Below, piece by piece: positions 12,511 to 58,702 of a DNA stretch of 64,000 nt (position 1 is its first letter; every line of letters starts with the position of its first letter). Where the stretch lies: positions 95,318-159,317 of the forward strand of contig NZ_QEAS01000005.1 of the NCBI RefSeq assembly GCF_003130405.1, written 5' to 3'. The notes beneath the pieces are model-generated. The model did no database searches and was not told the origin of the DNA. It was given only the letters and a program-made list of their open reading frames with translations. The position numbers and the translations under genes were made by a program. This DNA comes from Pararcticibacter amylolyticus (GTDB lineage Bacteria; Bacteroidota; Bacteroidia; Sphingobacteriales; Sphingobacteriaceae).

Positions 12511-15489
12511 CTACTTTACCTGCGTTATTACTTTTGTCGCCGGCGGGCCGAGATAGGATCTTTTCATCCCACCGAAATCAAGCACAATCTTCGAAATAAC
12601 CAGGCCCGGATCGCCGCAAAGGATCCTGAGGGTATGTTTGCCCGGACTATTGATGTGAAGTACTGATTTTTTGACGGCACTGTTTCTCAGTACATTTTCG
12701 GACCATACCTGTGAGTATTCCATTGCCGATGTGGTGGGTTGTGATACAGGACCATCATCGATACATACACCATACTTGGTCTCTCCGCCCGAGGTTTCGT
12801 GCCCAAGAACCTTATCTGTACTTAGCGGAAAGGTTGGCAGGGCATAGGTATACACGTCCACCGAACCTGCATGGAATGTGTAAAAGTCGTATTCAAGACA
12901 TGGCACAGTGCTGCTCATCGGGTTTTGGAAAGGAGCAGCCGGATCACCCAGCTGTACAGAAGCGCCTTCGTAACCAAGCCCGGGCACAATCCTCATTTTA
13001 ATGTCTTCCGACTCCCGCTTATTCTGAAATTCCGATGCGTTGATGGAGATATACCCGTTGTCTTCCATAAACAGGCCATTGACATCAGCCAGGGTGGGGG
13101 ATGCCGGGTTGAACACAGAAATCAATACGGATTCTTTTTGCTTGCCGGAAGTGATCGCAACCGAGCCTGAAACTCGTTCTCCCACGGGAACTTTTTTCCA
13201 GTCTACCGATACCCATATCCGGTCTTCTGTATCCGTAGATCCTCTTTTTGACTTCACGACGATCCAGTCGGCGGAGCTCTTCAATACCCATTTCAACGGA
13301 CTTCTGCCTGAGTTAAAGATGTCGAAATAGTAAGATTGTCTGTTGTAGGTATTAAAAGAAGGAAGAGCATGAAAACTTCTCTGTCCTTTCAGTACATCCT
13401 CACCTTCAGCCAGGACGTTTAATACAGATGGTCCTGATAATGTAACCGAATCAAGGCGGGGAAGCTCAAAGTACGAAGCCGTAACTCCCTGCACCATGGA
13501 CATCATTTGGTTCCATTTGCCGTTCAGCAATGAATTATATCCCCGGGTGATCACCTGTAAGCTGTCGTAGTACACTTTCACCTGCTCTTTCAGCTCGTTG
13601 GTGGCTGTCCGTTGCTGCCGGGCATACCATCGGTTTTTCTGAGCAGTCAGGTGCATTTTGTTCATCAGTTCGGCTCCTTTTACCGGGTAGTACAGCAATT
13701 GGTAAAAGGATGGTTTCTGATCGTCGTTAAGCTTGTCCATCAAGCTCTTGGCTAAACCTCCGATCCTCCCGTATTCCTTCAGCCTGGATTCTGCTTCCTG
13801 GTAGTTGGAAAAGGAAAAGTCGGTATCGGTGGTTCGTTCTCTTCCGTTTTTGTAGGTGTTCCATTCATAGCCCCATCCCATGGCTTCCGGTTTGCGCGAA
13901 AAGGCCAGGTGATAGTAAGCGGTTGTGATATCCAGTAACTGGTCGTAATATTCTTTTCCGAACAGGTTGCTCAGCCACGTTGCATGGTATCCTGCAATTA
14001 CGTCATAATTGAATTTATCAATATCATAAGCCATGTCCATGAAAAGGGTAAAGGGGAATTCGCATGACTTAATATCTCCCACGTTGAGCAGCCACAGCCG
14101 GTCAGCGGAGGTGTCGTAAGCCTTGCGCAACTCTTCATACATAAGAGCCGGTGGCGTAGAGCTCAGCCATAAATAGTCGTGCGGTTTGCCCAGATAAGAC
14201 GCATGGTAATATACTCCCGACCGGCCTGAACGTTTCTGTTCGGCGGCGTTGCTCAAACGCTTTAAATATCCGTAATTGTCATCCGGCCAGACAATCGTGA
14301 CATCCTCAGGCAGTTCTAGCCCGTTGGTGTAGATATCAAGTACTTCCTTATAAGGGGTAAATGCCTGGGGGATTTGATTGGCGGGCTTCCCGAGCACATC
14401 TGTCAGGATCTTCCGCTGATCGCGCAAAGCCTCGCTTAATACTTTTACACGGTCACTTACCGAGCTGTTAACTGACATTGCTTTGTCATGTATTCCCCTG
14501 AGAGCTAGTGTGTAGACGTTTTCGAAAGCAGCATTGCTTCTAACACGGTCCCTGAGTACCTTATTAATGCCCTCTTTGTTCGTCATGTAGTCCCATTCAC
14601 CCATTGTTTTTTTATCCCATTCACTGGCATTGTTAAACAACAAAGGTTCGGCGTGTACCGAGCCCATCACAATCGCAAAACTATCGGCAAGGAGTTTGTT
14701 TTCAGGTATTTGGTTAAAGGCAGTACTTGCTTCGTGCATGGCCGGGCACAGGTAATTTGCCTTTGTCCGAAGTAGTAGCTCAAAAATCTTCGCGTATGTT
14801 TTTGGGCCAATATTTCCCTGTTTCACGTCGAATGTCTTTTTTGCCCAGCGAAGCAGACCCCAGTCTTCGTCGTTTACATAAATCCCGCGGTATTTGACAG
14901 AGGGCTCGCGCGACAGCGTGACTGGTACCCGGAGGGTAAGCTGTGATCTTTTTACGATCGGCGCATCTGCCCACCAGTACCATGGAGACACTCCGATTGC
15001 TTCTGAAATGGAAAAAACACCGTAGGCAGTACCCCGTCGGTCACTGCCTGCTATGACCAGTGCTTTCTTTACTCCCGGAGCGGGATTGACAACAAGTTGA
15101 ATGAGGTAAGATTCCCATTTTCCTTTTAAGCCATTGGCTTGCAGTTTTCCCTCCCGGGCCCACTTGTCAATCAGCCCGTTGCTGCCCAGTGTCCCGATAA
15201 TGACACTGTTCTCTGCAAGCCGGGATTCTGATGTGATGACAGAAGGGAGCTGTCCGGTTACATTCTGAATATCTCCGGCAAACAGGCGGGTGGTTCTTTT
15301 TACAACCTCATAGTCTTTGGAATCGCAGTAAAGTATAGTTTGGGTCTGTGGGCCGGCCAGTCGGAACTCATTTTGAGTGACAGCATTGCCGGCAGACAAG
15401 CTTACCTGTGCCCGGCCGGTTTGTACCAGCAGGCTGGATAAACCGATCATCAGGAACATCTTTATTTCTGTAAGATGAAAACTGTTCAT
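12511..15489 (-). CDS. GH115 family alpha-glucuronidase
   Basis: The 992-residue secreted protein has a signal peptide ending near TGRAQ. The sequence follows GH115: an N-terminal alpha/beta domain (ILYCDSKDYEVVKRTTRLFAGDI), a central barrel with SPWYWWADAP, YRGIYVNDEDWGL and VWPDDNYGYLKRL, a helical domain, and a C-terminal beta domain that includes TTSAMEYSQVW. Known members release 4-O-methyl-glucuronic acid from xylan, and some act on arabinogalactan. It stands alone on the minus strand, but a copy of the 59-bp element (15563-15621) lies 73 bases upstream in the correct orientation. That places it under the same control as the third glycan locus 26-42 kb away. Confidence 0.93.
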   Translation of the reverse strand: MNSFHLTEIKMFLMIGLSSLLVQTGRAQVSLSAGNAVTQNEFRLAGPQTQTILYCDSKDYEVVKRTTRLFAGDIQNVTGQLPSVITSESRLAENSVIIGTLGSNGLIDKWAREGKLQANGLKGKWESYLIQLVVNPAPGVKKALVIAGSDRRGTAYGVFSISEAIGVSPWYWWADAPIVKRSQLTLRVPVTLSREPSVKYRGIYVNDEDWGLLRWAKKTFDVKQGNIGPKTYAKIFELLLRTKANYLCPAMHEASTAFNQIPENKLLADSFAIVMGSVHAEPLLFNNASEWDKKTMGEWDYMTNKEGINKVLRDRVRSNAAFENVYTLALRGIHDKAMSVNSSVSDRVKVLSEALRDQRKILTDVLGKPANQIPQAFTPYKEVLDIYTNGLELPEDVTIVWPDDNYGYLKRLSNAAEQKRSGRSGVYYHASYLGKPHDYLWLSSTPPALMYEELRKAYDTSADRLWLLNVGDIKSCEFPFTLFMDMAYDIDKFNYDVIAGYHATWLSNLFGKEYYDQLLDITTAYYHLAFSRKPEAMGWGYEWNTYKNGRERTTDTDFSFSNYQEAESRLKEYGRIGGLAKSLMDKLNDDQKPSFYQLLYYPVKGAELMNKMHLTAQKNRWYARQQRTATNELKEQVKVYYDSLQVITRGYNSLLNGKWNQMMSMVQGVTASYFELPRLDSVTLSGPSVLNVLAEGEDVLKGQRSFHALPSFNTYNRQSYYFDIFNSGRSPLKWVLKSSADWIVVKSKRGSTDTEDRIWVSVDWKKVPVGERVSGSVAITSGKQKESVLISVFNPASPTLADVNGLFMEDNGYISINASEFQNKRESEDIKMRIVPGLGYEGASVQLGDPAAPFQNPMSSTVPCLEYDFYTFHAGSVDVYTYALPTFPLSTDKVLGHETSGGETKYGVCIDDGPVSQPTTSAMEYSQVWSENVLRNSAVKKSVLHINSPGKHTLRILCGDPGLVISKIVLDFGGMKRSYLGPPATKVITQVK

Positions 15490-15919
15490 TTGTCAGGAAT
15501 CTATATTTCTTAATTCTGTAGTTTTTGGTCAGCTACCCTCTTTTATTGGTTTTACTATGGAGCAAAGTAAGCCAATGAAACTTATAAAATCAGTTCAATT
15601 ATTTGTCGATTCGTATCAGTTTGAACGGAACTACCCGGTTGATTTTTTGCTGTGTCACACGATTAGCCAAAGAATCCTTTCGGAATCACACCTGAAATAC
15701 CGGCTGTGTGCTTTGATGAAATGTGATTATTGTCATGTTTTATGTTGGCATATAGAGATAAGTGTTGGATTTTTTAGTATTCGTTTGTATTTAACAGATT
15801 GTTTATCAAGTGTTTGTTGTTTTTGTTGGTGAGATTTTTTAAAGGTGGAGGTATCGGGCCATAATGAGGATAGAAGTAAATACACACCTTTGACTTGCTA
15901 ACCTCTAAATGCAATATAT
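15490..15919. other. Divergent intergenic region (GH115 and IPT lipoprotein)
   Basis: This 430-base stretch holds the 59-bp element facing GH115 (15563-15621) and a -7-like CACCTTTG (15885-15892) facing the IPT lipoprotein gene. An open frame spans 15557-15832, but it merely reads through the regulatory element and has no family resemblance. The middle part is AT-rich and shows no other structure. Confidence 0.6.
15563..15621 (-). promoter_or_regulatory. 59-bp regulon element, copy A (upstream of GH115)
   Basis: Read on the minus strand, this is a gap-free match to three other elements in the window. It carries the invariant core AATCGACAAA at element positions 11-20, TGAAC at 25-29, and the end box CTTACTTTG, which resembles the Bacteroidetes -7 box. 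It matches copy B at 53 of 59 positions. The GH115 start codon lies 73 bases downstream. It is probably an activator site joined to a promoter. The likely binder is the split two-component regulator at 45.8-49.8 kb (inference). Confidence 0.8.
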
Positions 15920-23575: not shown

Positions 23576-23691
23576 GATATTGCTGAATGAATTCGCACAA
23601 ATTTATCTTTCATTGTATGCGGGTGGTACTTTGCTGTCACAATGAGACAAATAGACAAAATCCTGAACAGTAGTTTACCGGAGTAATATGC

Positions 23692-41148: not shown

Positions 41149-41200
41149 CCTATTAAGACAAAACTCTTTGTTCTTGCACAGTAACCCCAATTTTTTCATA

Positions 41201-41259
41201 AACTGATACGAATCGACAAACGATTGAACAAATTTTATAAGTTTCATTGATTTACTTTG
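41201..41259 (+). promoter_or_regulatory. 59-bp regulon element, copy B (upstream of GH5-like operon)
   Basis: This copy carries the invariant AATCGACAAA (41211-41220), then TTGAACAAAT (41224-41233), and ends with TTTACTTTG (41251-41259). It differs from copy A at only six positions although the two lie 25.6 kb apart on opposite strands. The GH5-like start codon lies 82 bases downstream. GACAAA and AACAAA (starts 12 bases apart) could be two half-sites for an AraC-type dimer (inference). Confidence 0.82.
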
Positions 41260-41341
41260 ATCCTTAATAAAACCAATAATAACACGCAACGCAGGTGCAC
41301 AGGTATACAAGCATTACATCTGCAAGGCATAATGAACGTTT

Positions 41342-42457
41342 ATGAAATTAAAATCACTTACCTTAATTGTTGCAGGCTTAATTTTGCAGGCCACCTCTTT
41401 TGCTCAGGTCAATGTTGTTGAACCGGCTAAGGTATGGTCGGAAGAAAAAGCGAACGAATGGTACAAACAACAACCCTGGCTGGTAGGCGCTGATTATATA
41501 CCGGCAAATGCAATTAATCAATTGGAAATGTGGCAGGCCAGCACTTTTGATCCCCGTACCATAGATAAAGAGCTGGGTTGGGCAGAGGGCCTCGGGATGA
41601 ATACGATGCGGGTATTTTTGCATAGCCTGGCGTACAAAGCAGATCCTGCAGGTTTTAAGTCACGTGTAGGGCAATTTCTGAGCATTGCAGATAAGCATCA
41701 CATAAAACCGATGTTTGTGTTTTTTGATGATTGCTGGAATAAAGTCCCTCAAATGGGCAAACAACCTGAAAAGAAAACGGGAATACATAATTCAGGCTGG
41801 ATGCAGGATCCGGGCGATCCGGCTTATAATGAACCTGCAAATTATCCCGCTCTGGAATCGTATGTGAAAGATATATTGAAGACCTTTTCACATGACAAGC
41901 GTATCCTGCTTTGGGATCTTTACAACGAACCGGGAAACAGCGGGAAGAAGGGCACCAGTATAACTTTATTGACGAAAATCTTCACATGGGCACGGGAGAT
42001 TAATCCTGATCAGCCAATTACTGCCGGACTTTGGAGTTGGGGCGAAAGCTTTCAGGAGCTCAACAGGTTTCAGCTGGCTAACTCCGACGTCGTTTCATAC
42101 CATTGTTATGATGAACCGGAAAGGCATCTGCGCACTATAGAGCTGCTGAAGTATTACGGAAAACCACTGTTCTGTACAGAATATATGGCCCGTACCCGTA
42201 ACAGTACGTTTATCAACACGTTGCCATTACTTAAAAAGCACCAAGTTGCGGCTATAAACTGGGGATTTGTCGACGGGAAAACCAATACGAAATACGCATG
42301 GGATACCCCTATGGCAGATGGTGGTGAACCAAAATTGTGGTTTCATGAAATATTCAGAGCAGATGGTACTCCCTATAAAAAGGAGGAAACAGACCTGATC
42401 CGTAAATTAACCAGCACCAACAGTAGTGTTAATGCTACTGGCAGTCTAGTCAAATAG
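41342..42457 (+). CDS. GH5-like cellulase-family glycosidase
   Basis: The 371-residue secreted TIM-barrel protein (signal peptide to TSFAQ) has the clan GH-A signature: acid/base Glu196 in DLYNEPGN and nucleophile Glu280 in FCTEYMAR, with GMNTMRVFLHSLAY at strand 2. Such proteins are often labelled 1,4-beta-xylanase or cellulase family; the exact GH5 subfamily cannot be given. It is the first gene of a four-gene operon with DUF1080, a Gfo/Idh/MocA protein and GH105. It is controlled by copy B of the 59-bp element. It probably cleaves a beta-linked backbone or side chain in the periplasm. Confidence 0.82.
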   Translation: MKLKSLTLIVAGLILQATSFAQVNVVEPAKVWSEEKANEWYKQQPWLVGADYIPANAINQLEMWQASTFDPRTIDKELGWAEGLGMNTMRVFLHSLAYKADPAGFKSRVGQFLSIADKHHIKPMFVFFDDCWNKVPQMGKQPEKKTGIHNSGWMQDPGDPAYNEPANYPALESYVKDILKTFSHDKRILLWDLYNEPGNSGKKGTSITLLTKIFTWAREINPDQPITAGLWSWGESFQELNRFQLANSDVVSYHCYDEPERHLRTIELLKYYGKPLFCTEYMARTRNSTFINTLPLLKKHQVAAINWGFVDGKTNTKYAWDTPMADGGEPKLWFHEIFRADGTPYKKEETDLIRKLTSTNSSVNATGSLVK

Positions 42458-42499: not shown

Positions 42500-43270
42500 A
42501 TGAAAAGGTACAGATTCATTTATGCTGTATTATTGACGGTGTTTGCAGTGAACATTGCAAATGCTCAGAACAGCAGATCAACAAAAACACAGTCGCAGAA
42601 CAACACACTTAGTACACAAGAAAAGAAAGAAGGCTTTCAGCTGCTTTGGAACGGGAAAGATTCAAAGGGCTGGCGGGCCTTATTTAAGGACCATTTCCCG
42701 GAAAAAGGCTGGCAGATGAAAGACGGAATTCTCACCGTAAAATCATCAGACGGACAGGAGCAGGGGTCTGGCGGCGACATTGTGACCATCAAAGAGTACT
42801 CTGCTTTTATATTGAAATTTGATTTCAAACTCACTGAAGGTGCGAACAGTGGCGTTAAGTATTTTGTCACAGAAAGGGAAAAAACCAAACTGTCGGGTAT
42901 TGGCCTGGAATTCCAGGTGCTTGATGACGACCGTCACCCTGACGCAAAACTGGGTAAGAACGGAAACCGCAAACTGGCATCTTTATACGATTTGATCCCA
43001 TCGAATAAGCCAGCCTCAGTGATAAAGCCTATAGGTGAATGGAACTCCGGTGAGGTAAGAGTATACCCTAATAACCATGTTGAACACTGGCTGAACGGAG
43101 TTAAGGTGGTTGAGTATGAGCGTGGATCGAAGGAGTTTAAGAATCTTGTTGCAGGAAGCAAATACGCAAAGTGGGAAAACTTTGGTGAAGCGCCAAAAGG
43201 CCATATCCTGCTGCAGGATCATGGTAATGAAGTTTCATATAGAAACATCAGGATAAAAGAGCTTAATTAA
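42500..43270 (+). CDS. DUF1080 family protein (3-keto-disaccharide hydrolase-like)
   Basis: The 256-residue secreted protein (signal peptide to NIANAQ) is one DUF1080 jelly-roll domain (about 45-254), with [17 protein letters not shown], the [11 protein letters not shown] strand, [11 protein letters not shown] and [18 protein letters not shown] at the end, all standard for the family. Some members cleave 3-keto-glycosides formed by a sugar dehydrogenase. The next gene, seven bases away, encodes a Tat-exported Gfo/Idh/MocA oxidoreductase. The pair therefore fits the 3-keto oxidative-elimination route for glycosides. This is inference from family knowledge; no activity is shown by sequence. Confidence 0.9.
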
Positions 43271-43277
43271 CCGGTGA

Positions 43278-44633
43278 ATGGAGAAATCTAGAAGGGATTT
43301 TATTAAGACTGCGGCAATCGCCGCGGCTGGTACCTACGCAGGAACACTTGGCATGACGGCAAAAAGCTACGCTAGTATTCTGGGTGCTAATGACAGGGTA
43401 AGGGTAGGAGTGGTGGGTTTTTCAGACAGGTTTAAAGATACGCTGTTTCCATGTTTTCTGAACCATTACAAAGAACTGAACTTCGATATGGTTGCTGTTT
43501 CCGACCTCTGGAGCTATCGCCGGGAACTGGGAGCAGAGCATATTAAAAGTAAGATCGGTCATGGTGTTAAAACCTGCCGGAACAACGACGAGCTTTATGC
43601 TTTGAAAGATCTGGATGCCGTAATCATCAGCACTCCTGACTTTTCACACGCTTTAAATGCTATTGAGGCAGTACAGGCAAAAAAAGATGTGTACTGTGAA
43701 AAGCCTTTTGCAGAAACGATGGACGATGCGCGAGCTGCTTTGAAGGCCGTAAGGGCATCAAAACAAATCCTGCAAATAGGATCACAAAGGCGCAGCGGGC
43801 AGAATTATCAGGCTGCCGCTGAGTTTATCAAGCAGGGGAAATTTGGCAATATTACTATGGTCGAATTGAGCTGGAACGTCAACCAACCAGGGCGCTGGCG
43901 TCGCCCGGCCCTGGTAGCGAAGCTTAAAGAAGAAGATACCGACTGGAAGCGGTTTTTATTAAACCGGCCCTTTGAGCCTTTTGATCCGCGGATATACCTC
44001 GAATACCGGCTGTTCTGGCCTTACTCTTCCGGGATGCCCGGACAGTGGATGAGCCACCAGATCGATACTGTACATTGGTTTACCGGTTTACAGCATCCGC
44101 GCAGTGTAACCGCTAACGGCGGGATCTATCAATGGAAAGACGGCCGCCGTAACTGGGATACCACAACTGCCGTTTTTGATTACGGTCCGGCTGACGATTT
44201 GAATAAGGGATTCCAGGTGGTATTTACATCGCGGATGCATAACGGGGACGAAAAACCTGCTGAGATCTATTACTCCAACGGAGGAGAATTGAATCTTATT
44301 ACCAATACGGTATCGCCGCAGGGAGGCCTTACAGCCGGCGCTGCTTCAGCAATGGGCATGAAACCCAACTTATTGCCGGATGTAAAGCTGGCCGCGCCAT
44401 CTTCCGTGATTGCCTCGGCCAATACGGGCGCCGATATATTGAGTTCCAATCACATGCGAAACTGGCTGGAGTGCATCCGCAGCCGGAAAGAACCTAATGC
44501 GCCGGTAGAGGCGGGCTACCAGCATTCTATAGCAAACATCATGACCAACGCTGCTGTGCGTACTGGCGGAAAGGCAACATTTGATGCTGCCACCCAGGAA
44601 GTGATGGTAAACGGTAAAGTGTTTAAATATTAA
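43278..44633 (+). CDS. Tat-exported Gfo/Idh/MocA family oxidoreductase
   Basis: The 451-residue protein starts with a twin-arginine signal (KSRRDFIKTAAIAAAG). A Rossmann domain follows (VRVGVVGFSDR, DAVIISTPDF) with EKPFAETMDDA, the conserved segment holding the catalytic lysine, then the C-terminal alpha/beta domain (about 180-450, MVELSWNVNQPGRWRRP). The Tat signal implies the folded protein, with tightly held NAD(P), is exported. It would oxidise or reduce a sugar ring position, likely C3, acting with the DUF1080 protein. It lies seven bases after DUF1080 and 13 before GH105. Confidence 0.9.
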   Translation: MEKSRRDFIKTAAIAAAGTYAGTLGMTAKSYASILGANDRVRVGVVGFSDRFKDTLFPCFLNHYKELNFDMVAVSDLWSYRRELGAEHIKSKIGHGVKTCRNNDELYALKDLDAVIISTPDFSHALNAIEAVQAKKDVYCEKPFAETMDDARAALKAVRASKQILQIGSQRRSGQNYQAAAEFIKQGKFGNITMVELSWNVNQPGRWRRPALVAKLKEEDTDWKRFLLNRPFEPFDPRIYLEYRLFWPYSSGMPGQWMSHQIDTVHWFTGLQHPRSVTANGGIYQWKDGRRNWDTTTAVFDYGPADDLNKGFQVVFTSRMHNGDEKPAEIYYSNGGELNLITNTVSPQGGLTAGAASAMGMKPNLLPDVKLAAPSSVIASANTGADILSSNHMRNWLECIRSRKEPNAPVEAGYQHSIANIMTNAAVRTGGKATFDAATQEVMVNGKVFKY

Positions 44634-44646
44634 TATTACGACAGAG

Positions 44647-45753
44647 ATGAACAGAAGATTATTGACATTATTACTCCTCTTGCCCTTTCATGTTTTATTC
44701 GCGCAGAAGAACCTTCTGACGGATTTTCCGAAAGGCTATACACCCCAGGAAGTTGGAAAGCGTCTGGCACACCGTTTTGTAGGTGGAAAACATGCGCTTC
44801 ATGCAGGGAAATGGATCAGCTACCCGGAAACGTTCAATTGGAATGGTTCCCTTAAATTTGCTGCACTAACAAAAGATAAAGAGCTTCTCAAGCTTTTGCA
44901 GGATAAGTTTGAGCCGCTGTTTACGACTGAAAAGCAGTTGCTGCCTATTATGAACCATGTGGATCTGAACATGTTTGGAAGTTTACCTCTGGAGCTTTAT
45001 CAGATCACAAAGGAAAAGCGATACTTCGAATTAGGAATGCCATATGCCGATACTCAATGGATTGTTCCGGAAGATGCCAGTCCACAAGCAAAGGAATGGG
45101 CTGAAAAAGGCTATTCATGGCAAACACGCCTGTGGATTGATGATATGTATATGATCACCATCGTACAAACACAGGCTTATAAAGTGACCAAAGACAGGAA
45201 GTATATAGACAGGGCGGCCAAAGAAATGGTACTTTACCTGGATGAGCTGCAGCGCCCTAACGGACTTTTTTATCATGCTCCTGATGTACCGTTTTACTGG
45301 GGGCGTGGCAACGGATGGATGGCTGCAGGTATGACAGAGTTGCTTCGTTATCTGCCAAAAGATAACAAAGACCGCCCGCGTATTCTTAAGGGTTATCTGA
45401 CCATGATGAAGAGCTTGAAAGAACACCAGGCTCCATCCGGTATGTGGAATCAGTTGATCGACGACCCACAATGCTGGGCTGAGACATCAGGTACAGCTAT
45501 GTTTACATATGCTATGATTACAGGAGTGAAGCAGGGATGGCTGGATAAACAGGAATATGCACCTGTAGCCCGGAAAGCCTGGATGGCGATGGTCCCGTAT
45601 ATTAATGAGAACGGTGCAGTGAGGGAAGTTTGTGTCGGAACAAATAAGAAGAACGACAAACAGTATTATTATGATCGCCCCCGTAATGTAGGTGATTATC
45701 ATGGGCAGGCTCCCTATCTCTGGTGCACTGTTGCCCTTTTAGAAAAGATGTAA
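44647..45753 (+). CDS. GH105 unsaturated uronyl hydrolase, copy 1
   Basis: The 368-residue secreted enzyme (signal peptide to LFAQ) is an (alpha/alpha)6 barrel of the GH105/YteR type. Catalytic Asp candidates are Asp165-Asp166 in WIDDMYMI, with PNGLFYHAPD, WGRGNGWMAAG and ETSGTAMFTYAM as further conserved parts. It removes the unsaturated uronate left at the non-reducing end by polysaccharide lyases. It is the last gene of the GH5-like operon and ends in a strong terminator. A close paralogue is encoded at 57596, with similarity along the whole length. Confidence 0.93.
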   Translation: MNRRLLTLLLLLPFHVLFAQKNLLTDFPKGYTPQEVGKRLAHRFVGGKHALHAGKWISYPETFNWNGSLKFAALTKDKELLKLLQDKFEPLFTTEKQLLPIMNHVDLNMFGSLPLELYQITKEKRYFELGMPYADTQWIVPEDASPQAKEWAEKGYSWQTRLWIDDMYMITIVQTQAYKVTKDRKYIDRAAKEMVLYLDELQRPNGLFYHAPDVPFYWGRGNGWMAAGMTELLRYLPKDNKDRPRILKGYLTMMKSLKEHQAPSGMWNQLIDDPQCWAETSGTAMFTYAMITGVKQGWLDKQEYAPVARKAWMAMVPYINENGAVREVCVGTNKKNDKQYYYDRPRNVGDYHGQAPYLWCTVALLEKM

Positions 45754-45798: not shown

Positions 45799-45824
45799 CC
45801 CGGGGCTTTTCCCCGGGTTTTTTT
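45799..45824 (+). terminator. Intrinsic terminator after GH105 copy 1
   Basis: CCCGGGG (45799-45805) pairs with CCCCGGG (45811-45817) around CTTTT, followed by a seven-base T-run. It is a textbook terminator for the GH5-like operon. The run touches the stop codon of the convergent response-regulator gene. Confidence 0.9.
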
Positions 45825-46602
45825 ATTCTTTTTTATCTTTTCCCAGTGAACTGATATATTCCTGCGGTGGTACATTGAAATATCTCTGGAAGTTTTTATT
45901 AAAGAGGCTCTGACTGCCGTATCCCACCATTTTTGCAATTTCAAACATTGAGAACTCATTTTGAGCAATGAGCTTTGTAGCCTTTTTGAGCCGCGTCACG
46001 TCTATCAGTTCTTTTGGTGATAACGCAGAAAGAGACTTGATCTTCCGGTAAAAAGTAGGCCGGCTCATATTCATGTGTTCAGCGAGCTGATCAATATTCA
46101 GATTAGGATCTTTGAGGTTTTTGCGGATATAATCATCCAGCTTCTTCAGAAAGGCCTCGTCTGTTTTTGAGTGAGCCATAACGCGGACATCCTCAAAAGG
46201 CGAGCTTGCGAAATGCGCCTTTATCTTTAACCGGTTAGCCAGCAGATTCGCAATCTGTACCAGCAGTAGCTCAGGAGAAAATGGTTTCTGGATATAGAGA
46301 TCGGCACCAACCTCTAATCCTTCAATATGCGACTGGTAAGTGTTTTTTACGGTTAGCAGCACCACAGGGATATGGCAATATTCTACATTCGTTTTAACCA
46401 GCCGGCAAAGCTCGAATCCGTCTATTCCCGGCATCATGATATCTGATATGATGAGGTCAACAACTTCAGTATCCAATATCTTTTGAGCCGCTTCTCCGTT
46501 TTCAGCAAGATACAGTTTATAGGTGTCACCCAAAACCTGAGACAAAAACTCCAGGATATCCTCGTTGTCGTCTACAATCAGAATTCTGTATGTCATGTTC
46601 AT
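45823..46602 (-). CDS. Response regulator with AraC DNA-binding domain (split HTCS, output half)
   Basis: The ATG at 46602 is chosen; a TTG reading at 46617 would add five residues. The start overlaps the kinase stop as ATGA, so the two genes are translationally coupled. The 259-residue protein has a receiver (Asp54 in LIISDIMMPG, Lys in IQKPFSPE), then an AraC helix-turn-helix (about 150-250, LNIDQLAEHMNMSRPTFYRK and the second helix pair SMFEIAKMVGYGSQSLF). This is the same receiver-AraC layout that forms the tail of fused hybrid regulators, here as a separate gene. It is the likely binder of the four 59-bp elements around it. Confidence 0.93.
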   Translation of the reverse strand: MNMTYRILIVDDNEDILEFLSQVLGDTYKLYLAENGEAAQKILDTEVVDLIISDIMMPGIDGFELCRLVKTNVEYCHIPVVLLTVKNTYQSHIEGLEVGADLYIQKPFSPELLLVQIANLLANRLKIKAHFASSPFEDVRVMAHSKTDEAFLKKLDDYIRKNLKDPNLNIDQLAEHMNMSRPTFYRKIKSLSALSPKELIDVTRLKKATKLIAQNEFSMFEIAKMVGYGSQSLFNKNFQRYFNVPPQEYISSLGKDKKE

Positions 46603-49600
46603 TTTATCTTTTTCCAATTGCTTAGTTTAAATTCAAATTCCTGATGAACCGGTAAAGTTAATTGGAAAACCACCATATTGGTATCACTTGATATCAATTT
46701 AATCGAACCATTATGTAATTCTGCCAGTGATTTAGCGAGAGGAAGCCCGATCCCGGTTCCAGGTTTGTCTTTGCCGCGTAACCTGAAGAATGGTTCAAAT
46801 ATGCGTTCACTGAATTCTTCAGGTATGCCTTTTCCATCATTGCTGAACAGAATGGTGAATTGATCGTCACCCGCCTGAACCTCATTTAAGCTTACTTTGG
46901 CCGTTGTTGCAGCATATTTAATAGCGTTCGAAATCAGGTTACTGCAGATCTTTATCAGCGCTTCCCTGTCTGTAAAGGCAACTACAGGAGTGGCAGGGAA
47001 CACCGCGTTTAAAGTTATATTGTTTTTTTCGGCTTCCTGTCTGAACGCTTCGATCTGGGTTTTCAGCAGACCGTTAATGTCGGTGTTCACGAAGTTTAAA
47101 CCGAACTGGTTCATTTCGGTTTTCCGGAAGTCAAGCAGCTGGCTGGTCAGTTCTGCCAGACGTTTCGCATTTCGTTCTACCATGCGTAAACTGCCTTTCA
47201 TGCTTTCCTCCGATGTTTTAGCTGCCATGAGCTGGACCGGTCCCAGGATCAACGTGATAGGCGTTTGTATCTCGTGCGCGATGTTGGTAAAAAACTCAAT
47301 CTTGGCCTGGTATATCTCTTTCTCTTTTTCGTGTTCAAATAGTTTCAGCTTATTCAGGTTTTTACGTTCAATATAACGATGGTAGTAACGCACAGACCAG
47401 AACAGGCAGAATCCCAATATAAGTAAGTAGAAGAAGTAAGCTGCATTGGTTTCCCAGAAAGGGGGAAGGATCTTAATGAAAAGACGGCGTTCCTGACCAG
47501 TCCAACTCCCTACATTACTCTTTGCCCTCACGATAAAAGTATAGTTTCCCGCTGATAGATCCGTAAAGTAAGCTTTACGGTTCCTGCTGAGATACGTACG
47601 GTTTTTATCAAGTCCCTGCATTAAAAATTCATACCGGGTAACTTCAGGAGATGAATAGTTCAGCGCAGCAAATTCAATACTGAAATTATTCTGATCGTAG
47701 GGAAGAACGATGGTATCGGTATACAGGATAGATTTGTTAAGCGGACTATCTTCTGTGTTGGGAACCACCTCTTTATTGTTGATCTGAAACCCCGTGATAT
47801 ACGTGGGCGGTCCTTGTTCTTTCCGTTCAAAATCTTTCGGATTAAAAGCGATCATCCCCTTTACCGACCCGAAATACATTTTGCCGTTGTTGTCTTTATA
47901 TGCAGAATTGAAATTGAACTGATCGGTGATCAATCCATTGGATTTCGTATAAACTTTAAAAGTTTCCGTGCGAAGGTCCATACAGATCAGACCTTTGAGC
48001 GAACTGATCCAGAGATGTTTGGAATCATCTTCCAGCATCCGGAATAATATGTTGGTGGGCAGACCTGTTTCGGTATTGAATTTTTTTATTGTTTTCCTGT
48101 CAGGACTTAACCTGATCAGTCCTCCTCCCTCGGTTGTAAACCACATAGCATGATCGCTGTCTTCCAGGATACCATATACGGCAAATTCATTTATGATCTT
48201 ATTATTGACAGTATCTCCGAAGCGAATGTTCCCATGAGCGCCTGTTTTGGGATTATAGTAGAATGCACCACGGACCACACTTCCGGCCCAGATGTTTCCC
48301 TTGCTGTCTTCTTTGATGTCAAAGACATAAGAATTGAGAGGTATTTCAGGAATGCGGGTAAACGTTTTACTTTTTCTGTTGTAAGAAAACAGGCCTGACC
48401 TGTTATAGGCTGTGCCGATAAGTAAGGTACTGTCTCTGGTGAGATAAATGGAGAGAACAAAGTCACTTGCTTTGTCGTCTTTTTCACCGATAAGCCTGAA
48501 CCTGTCTGTTACTTGTCCGGTGCGTATATTCATTATTTCCAGTCCCTTAAAGAAGGGGCCAATAAATAGCTGGTCTCCTAATGCGAGTAGTCCATGTATA
48601 TTGGGATAAGATATATCGCCTTTTTTTCCGGTCGATGTATAGTTCGTGAATTTTCCTGTTCGGAGGTTAAGCTTATTAAGTCCCGCATCTTCAGTACCGA
48701 TCCATAAATTGCCCCTGTTATCCGGACAAATTTCCCGAACTGCATAGCCGGATATGGAGTTAGTACCCGGTACCGGGTAATATTTCTCGAACCGCGCATT
48801 TTCCTTTGAATAATAATTTAAACCGCCGAAGAAGGTACCGGCCCACATGCCGCCCCGGTTGTCCCTGTATACTGCATAAACGGCATTGTCTGCAATAGAA
48901 TAAGGATCGCTTGCCCGGTTCCTCAAGCTTATACTTGTATTGGTTGCGATATTATAAATGTAGATACCTGATTCGGTAGCTATCCAGTACTCATCTTTGC
49001 CGCCGGCTGTGATATCACGGACATATACATCATTGTTGTCCCGTGAGCGCAACGGGAGTGTCCTGACTTCGCCCGTTTTGATATTATAGCTTTTTAGCCC
49101 CTGTTTAAAACATCCAATCAATACTGTGTTTTCGTCGACCGGAAGGATCTTGCTGATAGAGCGTGAGTTGGCCGGACTGTTCGGATCGCTGATCCGGACC
49201 TTTTTGACTAGTTTAATCTGAGGAGTATAGATGCTGATGACGCCATCATCATCACCAACCCATAGATTTTTCCTGCTGTCAATGGCAATACGCGAGGCGC
49301 GGATCTTCAGATCTTCAACCTTCTTCTCTTTCTGGTTATACCTGTAAACGGTTGCATTTGCCAGGTACCACAAGTTGTTTTCGCTGTCAACCAAAAGACG
49401 GAGGATAAAGGTCTGGAACGCCTTTTCCAGTGGAGTAAAGGTTTCCAGGTAGGGGTTAAACATGAAGAGTCCTTTACCTGTCCCTATCCACAGCATCCCG
49501 TTTTTATCTTCTGCAATAGTGGTTATGACATTGTTGCCGATATTGCCGAATTTGTTCTTTTTGTCTTTAAACGTTTTAAATGTATAGCCATCAAAACGGT

Positions 49601-49784
49601 TTAGCCCGCCCCGCGTACTCACCCATATCAGTCCTTTCTTATCCTGTATAATAGAGGTGACCGAATTGTGGGCCAACCCATCGTCCGCCTGATAATGTTT
49701 GAAATAGTAAGATTGCCCTTTGCAGGTGAGAACTGCAAAAAGGATCATTGCCGGGCAAAGAAAAAGTGAAAAAAGAAACCGCAT
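46599..49784 (-). CDS. Propeller-type sensor histidine kinase (split HTCS, sensor half)
   Basis: The 1061-residue protein has a signal peptide (MRFLFSLFLCPAMILFAVLTC), two Reg_prop beta-propellers (LIWVSTRGGLNRFDGY, MLWIGTGKGLFMF, LWIGTEDAGLNKL), a Y_Y_Y domain (about 690-765), a membrane helix (about 775-795), HisKA with His837, and HATPase_c (NLISNAIKYA, NDGKGIP, GTGIGLPLAKSL). The motif reads HEIQTP instead of HEIRTP or HELRTP. The protein ends right after HATPase with no receiver; that part is in the next gene, overlapping by four bases. It should sense an oligosaccharide in the periplasm and pass phosphate to that regulator. Confidence 0.94.
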   Translation of the reverse strand: MRFLFSLFLCPAMILFAVLTCKGQSYYFKHYQADDGLAHNSVTSIIQDKKGLIWVSTRGGLNRFDGYTFKTFKDKKNKFGNIGNNVITTIAEDKNGMLWIGTGKGLFMFNPYLETFTPLEKAFQTFILRLLVDSENNLWYLANATVYRYNQKEKKVEDLKIRASRIAIDSRKNLWVGDDDGVISIYTPQIKLVKKVRISDPNSPANSRSISKILPVDENTVLIGCFKQGLKSYNIKTGEVRTLPLRSRDNNDVYVRDITAGGKDEYWIATESGIYIYNIATNTSISLRNRASDPYSIADNAVYAVYRDNRGGMWAGTFFGGLNYYSKENARFEKYYPVPGTNSISGYAVREICPDNRGNLWIGTEDAGLNKLNLRTGKFTNYTSTGKKGDISYPNIHGLLALGDQLFIGPFFKGLEIMNIRTGQVTDRFRLIGEKDDKASDFVLSIYLTRDSTLLIGTAYNRSGLFSYNRKSKTFTRIPEIPLNSYVFDIKEDSKGNIWAGSVVRGAFYYNPKTGAHGNIRFGDTVNNKIINEFAVYGILEDSDHAMWFTTEGGGLIRLSPDRKTIKKFNTETGLPTNILFRMLEDDSKHLWISSLKGLICMDLRTETFKVYTKSNGLITDQFNFNSAYKDNNGKMYFGSVKGMIAFNPKDFERKEQGPPTYITGFQINNKEVVPNTEDSPLNKSILYTDTIVLPYDQNNFSIEFAALNYSSPEVTRYEFLMQGLDKNRTYLSRNRKAYFTDLSAGNYTFIVRAKSNVGSWTGQERRLFIKILPPFWETNAAYFFYLLILGFCLFWSVRYYHRYIERKNLNKLKLFEHEKEKEIYQAKIEFFTNIAHEIQTPITLILGPVQLMAAKTSEESMKGSLRMVERNAKRLAELTSQLLDFRKTEMNQFGLNFVNTDINGLLKTQIEAFRQEAEKNNITLNAVFPATPVVAFTDREALIKICSNLISNAIKYAATTAKVSLNEVQAGDDQFTILFSNDGKGIPEEFSERIFEPFFRLRGKDKPGTGIGLPLAKSLAELHNGSIKLISSDTNMVVFQLTLPVHQEFEFKLSNWKKIK

Positions 49785-49908: not shown

Positions 49909-49967
49909 ATTTGAGACGAATCGACAAAAATATGAACAGAATATAAACGCACTATTCCTTTAATTTG
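49909..49967 (+). promoter_or_regulatory. 59-bp regulon element, copy C (upstream of ricin-GH43)
   Basis: Gap-free match to the other three copies, with AATCGACAAA at 49919-49928, TGAACA at 49933-49938 and the end box TTTAATTTG (49959-49967). It is the most diverged copy. The ricin-GH43 start lies 86 bases downstream. It lies in the divergent region between this gene and the split sensor kinase, so the sensor's own promoter could be influenced as well. Confidence 0.75.
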
Positions 49968-50053
49968 ATATGCAATTAACCATATTTATAAACAGTACCG
50001 CAAATCATCGTTTCCTGTAATCCGTATTTTTTGCTGGTACACAAACTTTTCTT

Positions 50054-51795: not shown

Positions 51796-51854
51796 AGTTG
51801 AGATAAATCGACAAAAGGTTGAACAAATTATAAAGTGACCATTCCTTTACTTTG
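51796..51854 (+). promoter_or_regulatory. 59-bp regulon element, copy D (upstream of third SusC)
   Basis: AATCGACAAA (51806-51815) is followed by TTGAACAAAT (51819-51828) and the end box TTTACTTTG (51846-51854), with the same spacing as the other copies. The SusC start is 254 bases downstream, much farther than the 73-86 bases seen for copies A-C, so this transcript would carry a long leader. Confidence 0.78.
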
Positions 51855-52108
51855 GCTCATGGGAGCATGACTGATTATTGAAGGGATGAAATATTAGAAC
51901 TTTTACAGCAAGACCTTTAAAAAATATGCTCATATAAACCCAATAGTAAACTATGTTCGCCCCCCTTTTGCGGTAGTATAAAGGGAGGGGAATGAAAAAA
52001 GGATTTTATGAAACTAAATTTACTTGCCGCATTTATAGCCGACGGATGATTTATCGGCGAATTATTTACACCAATTAAAATCAGAAAATTAACATTTCAT
52101 TTTTTATT
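51855..52108 (+). promoter_or_regulatory. Structured 254-base leader of the third SusC transcript
   Basis: If transcription starts just after copy D, this is the untranslated leader. It holds an inverted repeat (CCCCCCTTT at 51960-51968 against AAAGGGAGGGG at 51980-51990), a GCCGA/TCGGC stem (52038-52042 with 52054-52058), and a small frame encoding MKLNLLAAFIADG (52008-52049). It may be a site of post-transcriptional control, but no known riboswitch is recognised. Confidence 0.35.
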
Positions 52109-57595: not shown

Positions 57596-58702
57596 ATGTA
57601 CAGAAGATTATTTTTATCGCTGCTTGCAGTACTCTCTTTTCAATTTTTGATTGCCCGGCAGAAAGACCTTGCGAGCTTTCCCAAGGGTTCCACTCCCCAA
57701 GAAGTAGGTAAGCGCCTGGCTTATCACTTTGTGGATGGCAGGCACGAACTTTATGCAGCCAGTTACATTCATTACGCCGAAGTTTGCAGTTGGAACGGTG
57801 CTCTGGATTACGCATTGAAAACAAAGGACGCGAAGCTAATCAAGCTTTTGCAGGATAAATTTGAACCGTTCTTTTCGAGAGAAAAAGCCCTGTTGCCGCC
57901 AATGAACCATGTGGATTACAACATGTTCGGAAGCCTGGCACTGAAGCTCTACCAGATCACAAAGGACGAGCGTTACCGGAAAATGGGACTGGAGTATGCC
58001 GATTCGCAATGGACCTTGCCTCAGAATGCAAAGCAGGAAGAAAAAGCCTGGGCCGATAAAGGTTTTTCCTGGCAGACACGCCTGTGGATAGATGATATGT
58101 ATATGATCACTGTTGTGCAAAATGAAGCCTATAAGGTAACTGGCGACCGCAAATATCTCGACCGGGCAGCAAGGGAAATGGTTATGTACCTGGATGAGCT
58201 GCAACGTCCGAACGGACTTTTTTATCATGCTCCCGACGTCCCTTATTATTGGGGACGGGGAGACGGATGGATGGCCGTAGGGATGCCAGATTTATTACGT
58301 GTGATGCCAAAAGATCATAAAGACCGTGCCCGTATAATGGAAGGTTACCTGAAGATGATGAAAAGCCTTAAAGAGTACCAGAGACCAAATGGAATGTGGA
58401 ACCAGCTCATTGATCAGCCTGATTTTTGGGCTGAAACCTCAGGTACCGCCATGTTTACCTACGCTTTCATCGCGGGTGTGAAGGAAGGATGGCTTGATGC
58501 AGTGGAATATGCTCCGGCGGCACGCAAAGCATGGTTAGCTATGGTACCTTACATCGACGAACGGAATAACGTAACAGAAGTGTGTATCGGTACAGGTAAA
58601 AAGAACGATAAACAATATTACCATGATCGTCCGCGCAATGCGGGAGACCTTCATGGTCAGGCACCTTACCTTTGGTGCGCAGCTGCTCTTATAGGCAAGT
58701 AG
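57596..58702 (+). CDS. GH105 unsaturated uronyl hydrolase, copy 2
   Basis: The 368-residue secreted paralogue of the GH105 at 44647 has the same length and shares long identical stretches, such as WQTRLWIDDMYMIT, YLDELQRPNGLFYHAPDVP and AETSGTAMFTYA. The catalytic Asp pair is at about 166-167. The motif WGRGNGW of copy 1 is WGRGDGW here, an Asn-to-Asp change beside the active site. It follows the terminator of SusCD 3 and has no copy of the 59-bp element. Duplication with later specialisation is likely. Confidence 0.92.
   Translation: MYRRLFLSLLAVLSFQFLIARQKDLASFPKGSTPQEVGKRLAYHFVDGRHELYAASYIHYAEVCSWNGALDYALKTKDAKLIKLLQDKFEPFFSREKALLPPMNHVDYNMFGSLALKLYQITKDERYRKMGLEYADSQWTLPQNAKQEEKAWADKGFSWQTRLWIDDMYMITVVQNEAYKVTGDRKYLDRAAREMVMYLDELQRPNGLFYHAPDVPYYWGRGDGWMAVGMPDLLRVMPKDHKDRARIMEGYLKMMKSLKEYQRPNGMWNQLIDQPDFWAETSGTAMFTYAFIAGVKEGWLDAVEYAPAARKAWLAMVPYIDERNNVTEVCIGTGKKNDKQYYHDRPRNAGDLHGQAPYLWCAAALIGK

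Follow-up and report, generated by a model that had tools for sequence, protein, structure and literature searches.

A conserved DUF1080-Gfo/Idh/MocA gene pair of Pararcticibacter amylolyticus as a probable periplasmic oxidise-then-cleave module in a polysaccharide utilisation locus

The window, i.e. the whole 64,000-nt stretch of DNA that was analysed (Pararcticibacter amylolyticus, contig NZ_QEAS01000005.1, positions 95,318 to 159,317), is the setting of a soil-type Bacteroidota polysaccharide utilisation locus. The genes and sequence elements considered were located in the window as follows:

12511-15489, minus strand: GH115 alpha-glucuronidase gene, about 26 kb away from the operon of the pair and provided with a copy of the promoter element
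15543-15622, minus strand: copy of the element ahead of the GH115 gene, 88.8% over 80 nt
near 23643: weaker copy of the element
about 41200-41279, plus strand: copy of the element ahead of the operon of the pair
41342-42457, plus strand: exported TIM-barrel-like enzyme of 371 aa, first gene of the operon, with a sub-threshold match to PF02836
42500-43270, plus strand: DUF1080 protein of 256 aa, single-domain and secreted
43278-44633, plus strand: Gfo/Idh/MocA protein of 451 aa, named GfoA here
44647-45753, plus strand: GH88/GH105-family protein resembling unsaturated uronyl hydrolases, encoded last in the operon (PF07470, 207.5 bits; PDB 3k11, YteR)
45823-46617, minus strand: response regulator with an AraC-type HTH
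46599-49784, minus strand: two-component sensor with a Reg_prop/Y_Y_Y periplasmic part and a histidine kinase
49911-49970, plus strand: copy of the element ahead of GH43-CBM13
51798-51855, plus strand: copy of the element ahead of a TonB-dependent receptor/SusD pair

The operon was arranged in the order TIM-barrel-like enzyme, DUF1080, GfoA and GH105, with gaps of 42, 7 and 13 nt. A preliminary description of this DNA had reported a secreted DUF1080 protein followed after 7 nt by a Tat-type Gfo/Idh/MocA oxidoreductase, and the ORFs, Pfam matches and N-termini all agreed with it. The same description had named the flanking genes as GH5-like and GH105; GH105 was borne out by PF07470 while the GH5-like assignment was not established. 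The best Pfam match of the 371-aa protein was the Glyco_hydro_2_C TIM barrel (PF02836) with 18.4 bits, under the threshold, and neither a Pfam family above cut-off nor a PDB sequence match was found for it. Its gene was kept beside the DUF1080-GfoA pair in five loci of relatives (L081, L084, L087, L088 and L089), and the enzyme is possibly a candidate for an undescribed glycoside hydrolase family. In L088 and L089 the GH105 gene likewise adjoined the pair. A 300-nt stretch was 73% identical between two GH105-type genes in the window (44868-45167 and 57820-58119), and from this resemblance they are likely paralogues. With GH115, GH43, GH105 and SusCD genes present, the substrate of the locus is perhaps a glucuronic-acid-bearing arabinan or arabinogalactan, which is a guess.

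A 59-bp element above the operon had also been described, and its copies were confirmed. The element was detected by blastn of intergenic regions, with the pattern AATCGACAAA-N4-TGAACAAATTTTATAA...TTTACTTTG, after being missed by a repeat search with a seed of 14, and was absent from shuffled sequence. A tighter exact pattern gave two sites only in the genome. In the Mucilaginibacter gossypiicola locus L081 the element was located 137 nt upstream of the so-called GH5-like gene that opens the operon of the pair, and a further copy was found at L084:5901. The two-component pair was also encoded beside DUF1080-GfoA in L079, L082, L086, L087 and L088. We infer that the AraC-type response regulator likely reads the repeated element.

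The DUF1080 protein matched PF06439 ('3keto-disac_hyd') with 158.8 bits against a cut-off of 26.8 and covered the complete profile (1-187 of 187), and its N-terminus reads as a Sec-type signal. Sequence matches in the PDB were 4jqt and 3hbk (E ~1e-87) followed by 8rr2, 8tda and 3osd (E ~1e-40). Comparison with the two halves of 4jqt produced 264 bits for the C-terminal half and 36 bits for the N-terminal half. The printed stretch of 8tda was the same as that of 8rr2, which was deposited as a 3-keto-disaccharide hydrolase domain protein, and the 8tda sequence is presumably BT2157. Across 63 DUF1080 sequences, 50 positions were more than 95% conserved, kept in the window protein and common to the solved 8tda; these included E137, Q139, D142, H146, D148, K150, N156, R157, Y163, D164 and H241. 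The conserved motifs of the window protein were HPDAKLG-NR-SLYD and QDHG. The preliminary description had raised a DUF1080 protein with a binding role only, but its sequence makes this unlikely since the polar core is kept and is shared with solved 3-keto-disaccharide hydrolase relatives. DUF1080 proteins have been tied to the use or cleavage of 3-keto-lactose and 3-keto-trehalose (PMC9007349). One DUF1080 enzyme, THTE_1561, was reported as an endo-xanthanase/lichenase (PMC9007349), so cleavage by DUF1080 need not require a 3-keto group.

GfoA matched PF01408 (GFO_IDH_MocA) with 51.6 bits against a cut-off of 24. Its start, MEKSRRDFIKTAAIAAAG, is a twin-arginine signal, and TatC was present in the genome. 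The best NCBIfam match was the BT_2158 glycoside 3-dehydrogenase family (NF058561) with 90.7 bits, below the cut-off of 750, and by sequence GfoA is assigned to a separate clade outside this characterised family, so the site of its oxidation is one that we infer. The motifs G47-x-S49-DR, D76, EK142P and H260-x-x-D263 were identified, with K142, H260 and D263 invariant and with D76, after the second beta strand, as the acidic residue typical of NAD use. The Gly-rich loop of the clade read G47-F/Y-S/A49-D-R-F/H in 81 of 81 sequences, without the canonical G-x-G-x-x-G that is usual for Gfo/Idh/MocA proteins and is not demanded by the PF01408 model; since G-F/Y-S/A replaces G-x-G, cofactor binding by GfoA is not certain. 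A total of 193 of the 451 positions were more than 97% conserved in the window protein and 80 relatives. No enzyme assay for a member of the GfoA clade was found in the literature searched.

The AlphaFold (AF2) model of GfoA had a pLDDT of 75. VIA-align gave DgpA1 (9m3d) as the best match (Z 31.0, rmsd 3.3, 328 aligned) and DgpA with Z 30.3, while the top match with Foldseek was the glucuronide-3-dehydrogenase 8tdi. With both tools the scores of many Gfo enzymes lie only a few Z apart, which supports the fold and does not discriminate the substrate; as modelled, GfoA has the Gfo sugar-dehydrogenase fold. The NAD-dependent glycoside hydrolases 8qc8, 8qc2 and 8qc3 were also near the top rows (Z 28.8-29.4), as would fit a GfoA that acts on its own as a full NAD-dependent glycosidase of the GH109 or sulfoquinovosidase type, in which oxidation, elimination, water addition and re-reduction occur in a single active site, with DUF1080 as an accessory for binding or product handling. 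Such an enzyme would recycle its own cofactor and so account for the lack of an electron partner at the locus. However, Gfo folds all score alike, which leaves the ranking undiscriminating, and the polar core kept across the 63 DUF1080 sequences is not required for mere binding; we therefore regard a self-sufficient GfoA glycosidase as improbable.

Among 150 related genomes, the GfoA clade was sharply bounded, with identities of 59-92% and the next step at 34%. Of 80 named relatives, 57 encoded DUF1080 as the next gene upstream of GfoA and on its strand, with a median gap of about 12 nt, and 62 had it at most three genes away. The other 18 loci had no DUF1080 inside three genes and some of them carried DUF6807 instead. 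This pairing far exceeds chance, and it occurred over several families and in quite different surroundings. Both protein families are large and common in Bacteroidota, so the two might simply be co-regulated neighbours in a glycan locus, a conventional hydrolase and a conventional sugar dehydrogenase without common chemistry. The immediate adjacency over several families in varied surroundings speaks against this, and mere neighbourhood is very improbable. DUF6807 (PF14100) replaced or accompanied DUF1080 beside GfoA in L123, L126, L131, L154, L002 and other loci, which suggests a role linked to GfoA.

The majority of the DUF1080 partners were tandem proteins, and a short partner was found in twelve loci. 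One of these, L124, was a contig-end fragment of 120 aa, and the 11 true single-domain loci were L079-L089. Together with the window they formed one clade of 12 rows with a support of 100, nested among tandem-partner loci, which indicates that the single-domain version arose once and kept the C-terminal-type domain. The earlier-branching members of this clade encoded ApbE and GfoB directly downstream of GfoA; GfoB is a Gfo/Idh/MocA protein that is the operon partner of GfoA in relatives and is encoded outside the window. Judging from this branching order, the window lineage probably lost both genes from the operon. Overall, the window pair is a pared-down form of a wider cassette of DUF1080 and GfoA, often with ApbE and GfoB or with DUF6807.

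The pair resembles the BT2157-BT2160-type 3-keto-disaccharide pathway of Bacteroides, which also has a DUF1080 protein and an exported Gfo in the periplasm, and the DUF1080 core is conserved. It differs in the Gfo (90.7 bits compared with 750 for the BT_2158 family), in having neither a second Gfo nor a TIM-barrel isomerase in the window, and in its position in a SusCD/GH locus under a common promoter element. In the Caulobacter system of LacABC and DUF1080 (PMC9007349), a 3-keto sugar is likewise formed by oxidation and then cleaved by a periplasmic DUF1080 protein, but LacABC is a membrane-bound dehydrogenase and the window has no GMC, Gluconate_2-dh3 or cytochrome c, which the same genome has on contig C75. 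The Agrobacterium GlycDH/AtOGE/AtHYD/Gfo route (PMC10628242) and the DgpA C-glycoside route have 3-keto chemistry and aglycone elimination in common with the proposed reaction, and the GfoA model was closest to DgpA1 and DgpA; the AtOGE eliminase, however, is a TIM-barrel Mn enzyme and not a DUF1080 protein. The oxidise-then-split chemistry of sugars is itself of a known kind.

The large ORFs of the window included no GMC flavoprotein, Gluconate_2-dh3, cytochrome or isomerase, in accordance with the earlier remark that no sugar isomerase or cytochrome partner is seen nearby. This absence was local. The genome search identified a LacABC-like cluster (L001, contig C75) with GMC, Gluconate_2-dh3, a signal-less Gfo, a BT_2158-like Gfo (489 bits), a TIM barrel, cytochrome c and DUF1080, and a second cassette (L002, contig C21) with a 73% identical GfoA, GfoB, a tandem DUF1080 and DUF6807. 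The cytochrome set of L001 and the GfoB of L002 could be recycling partners in the same genome. The apbE gene of this genome was also on C21, in an unrelated neighbourhood. Genomes G006, G007 and G017 had GfoA with both GfoB and ApbE absent, which indicates that GfoA does not need GfoB.

With the gene content of L001, the roles could also be turned around: DUF1080 would cleave 3-keto-glycosides made by the LacABC-like oxidase of C75, and GfoA would reduce the released 3-keto sugar to an ordinary sugar, as a Gfo reductase of 3-keto-glucose has been described in Agrobacterium (PMC10628242). However, GfoA carries a Tat signal, and since the periplasm is not expected to contain free NADH, a cofactor cycle would be needed in this case too. 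In addition, GfoA-DUF1080 pairs with no GMC gene beside them are widespread. We consider it unlikely that GfoA serves as a reductase behind the C75 oxidase.

GfoB was found in the following loci outside the window, with an ApbE motif:

L081:10373-11572: GfoB
L002:8463-9671, minus strand: GfoB in the second cassette of the P. amylolyticus genome
about 50 other loci: GfoB

The ApbE recognition motif is D-x-x-[ST]-G-A-[ST] (PMC12052999). It was exact in 52 of 52 GfoB or GfoB-like sequences (32/32 in the clade and 20/20 in a second set down to 37% identity), as DGVTGAT or allowed variants, compared with 0 of 83 other Gfo proteins and 6 of 917 other ORFs in the same loci. A flavinylated GfoA was rejected on the same count, the motif being present in 0/83 non-GfoB Gfo proteins. 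At the phylum level the motif was exact in 16 of 18 GfoB hits, some of which were counted already; L186 had DGVAGAT, and the L196 hit is probably not a GfoB. In the GfoB model, motif residues 319-325 were part of a C-terminal-domain loop (314-331) modelled with low confidence, as would be anticipated if the ApbE target is exposed. Some GfoB proteins have TGAT once more, at about residues 366-372 (SNVLTGAT); this stretch was rejected as a flavinylation site, having no aspartate and not being constant.

GfoA, GfoB and a gene of about 340 aa were located in one locus in the close relatives L080, L081, L084 and L085, and also in L098, L117, L119 and L136. Two of the ~340-aa genes were scanned and identified as ApbE, FAD:protein FMN transferase (PF02424, 238 and 251 bits), while the rest matched these two by phmmer. 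In the set of 150 genomes, ApbE was present in all 30 with GfoB or a GfoB-like protein versus 61 of the 120 others (Fisher p 3e-8, overstated because the genomes are related), and it was present in 14/14 further GfoB genomes of six other families. In G004, G016 and G428 the sole ApbE found in the genome adjoins GfoB. A search of 26 genomes, of which 23 encode GfoB, gave no match to FMN_bind, the classical ApbE target domain; ApbE has other targets as well (NqrB, PepSY, DUF2271). Adjacency of apbE was not fully specific to the motif-bearing Gfo, as apbE was beside a motif-less Tat-Gfo in L202-L204; these genomes encode GfoB elsewhere. The cluster in question contains an FGE-like protein, the motif-less Tat-Gfo (~440 aa), ApbE and a TIM barrel (L202:4196-8574, L203:3543-6959 and L204:2754-7084), and in L204 the GMC and Gluconate_2-dh3 genes come next.

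GfoB is similar to the known ApbE-flavinylated extracytosolic proteins (NqrC/RnfG FMN_bind and fumarate-reductase-like) in its exact 7-residue motif and in the often adjoining apbE, and unlike those proteins (PMC8238504, PMC12052999, PMC11334425) it is a Gfo/Idh/MocA protein. None of the three papers mentions Gfo/Idh/MocA proteins in its main text, and a combined search of the openly accessible literature on flavinylation and Gfo/Idh/MocA found none. On the strength of the motif, it is possible that GfoB is an undescribed covalent flavoprotein.

Overall, the pair probably works in the periplasm as an oxidise-then-cleave module that breaks glycosidic bonds, within a polysaccharide utilisation locus under two-component regulation. 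This is the best supported reading based on the conserved pairing, the DUF1080 core residues, the Gfo fold, the export of both proteins and the co-regulation with hydrolases. The oxidation-elimination route of the preliminary description thus stands in outline, with the qualifications that GfoA does not belong to the characterised 3-dehydrogenase family and that the partner is missing only locally. GfoA would fold with its NAD cofactor and leave via Tat, and would then oxidise a sugar hydroxyl, most likely at C3, on an oligosaccharide freed by the hydrolases of the locus. The 3-keto-glycoside, thereby activated, would be split by the secreted DUF1080 protein through elimination and addition of water. 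The hydride may be recycled internally, with GfoA reducing a second sugar, e.g. the 3-keto product, in the manner of glucose-fructose oxidoreductase; the genomes with the pair and without GfoB support this option. Alternatively, it may be recycled in trans via the GfoB of the second cassette L002, which is supported by the genome content. Tentatively, and with somewhat less than even confidence, we propose that a Tat-exported GfoB loaded with FMN by ApbE re-oxidises the nicotinamide of GfoA and BT_2158-like dehydrogenases and passes the electrons to the membrane, and that the window pair, having lost its local ApbE and GfoB, uses the copy elsewhere in the genome.

If the oxidise-then-cleave reading is true, one regulator switches on hydrolytic and oxidative glycan cleavage together in a polysaccharide utilisation locus, and such loci would reach further than is apparent from their hydrolases. 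With the GfoB lead, it becomes directly testable how NAD-dependent sugar dehydrogenases outside the cytosol dispose of their electrons. If GfoB is indeed covalently flavinylated, it would represent a novel type of ApbE substrate, would connect glycan oxidation with respiration in a new way and would answer the question of the missing partner.
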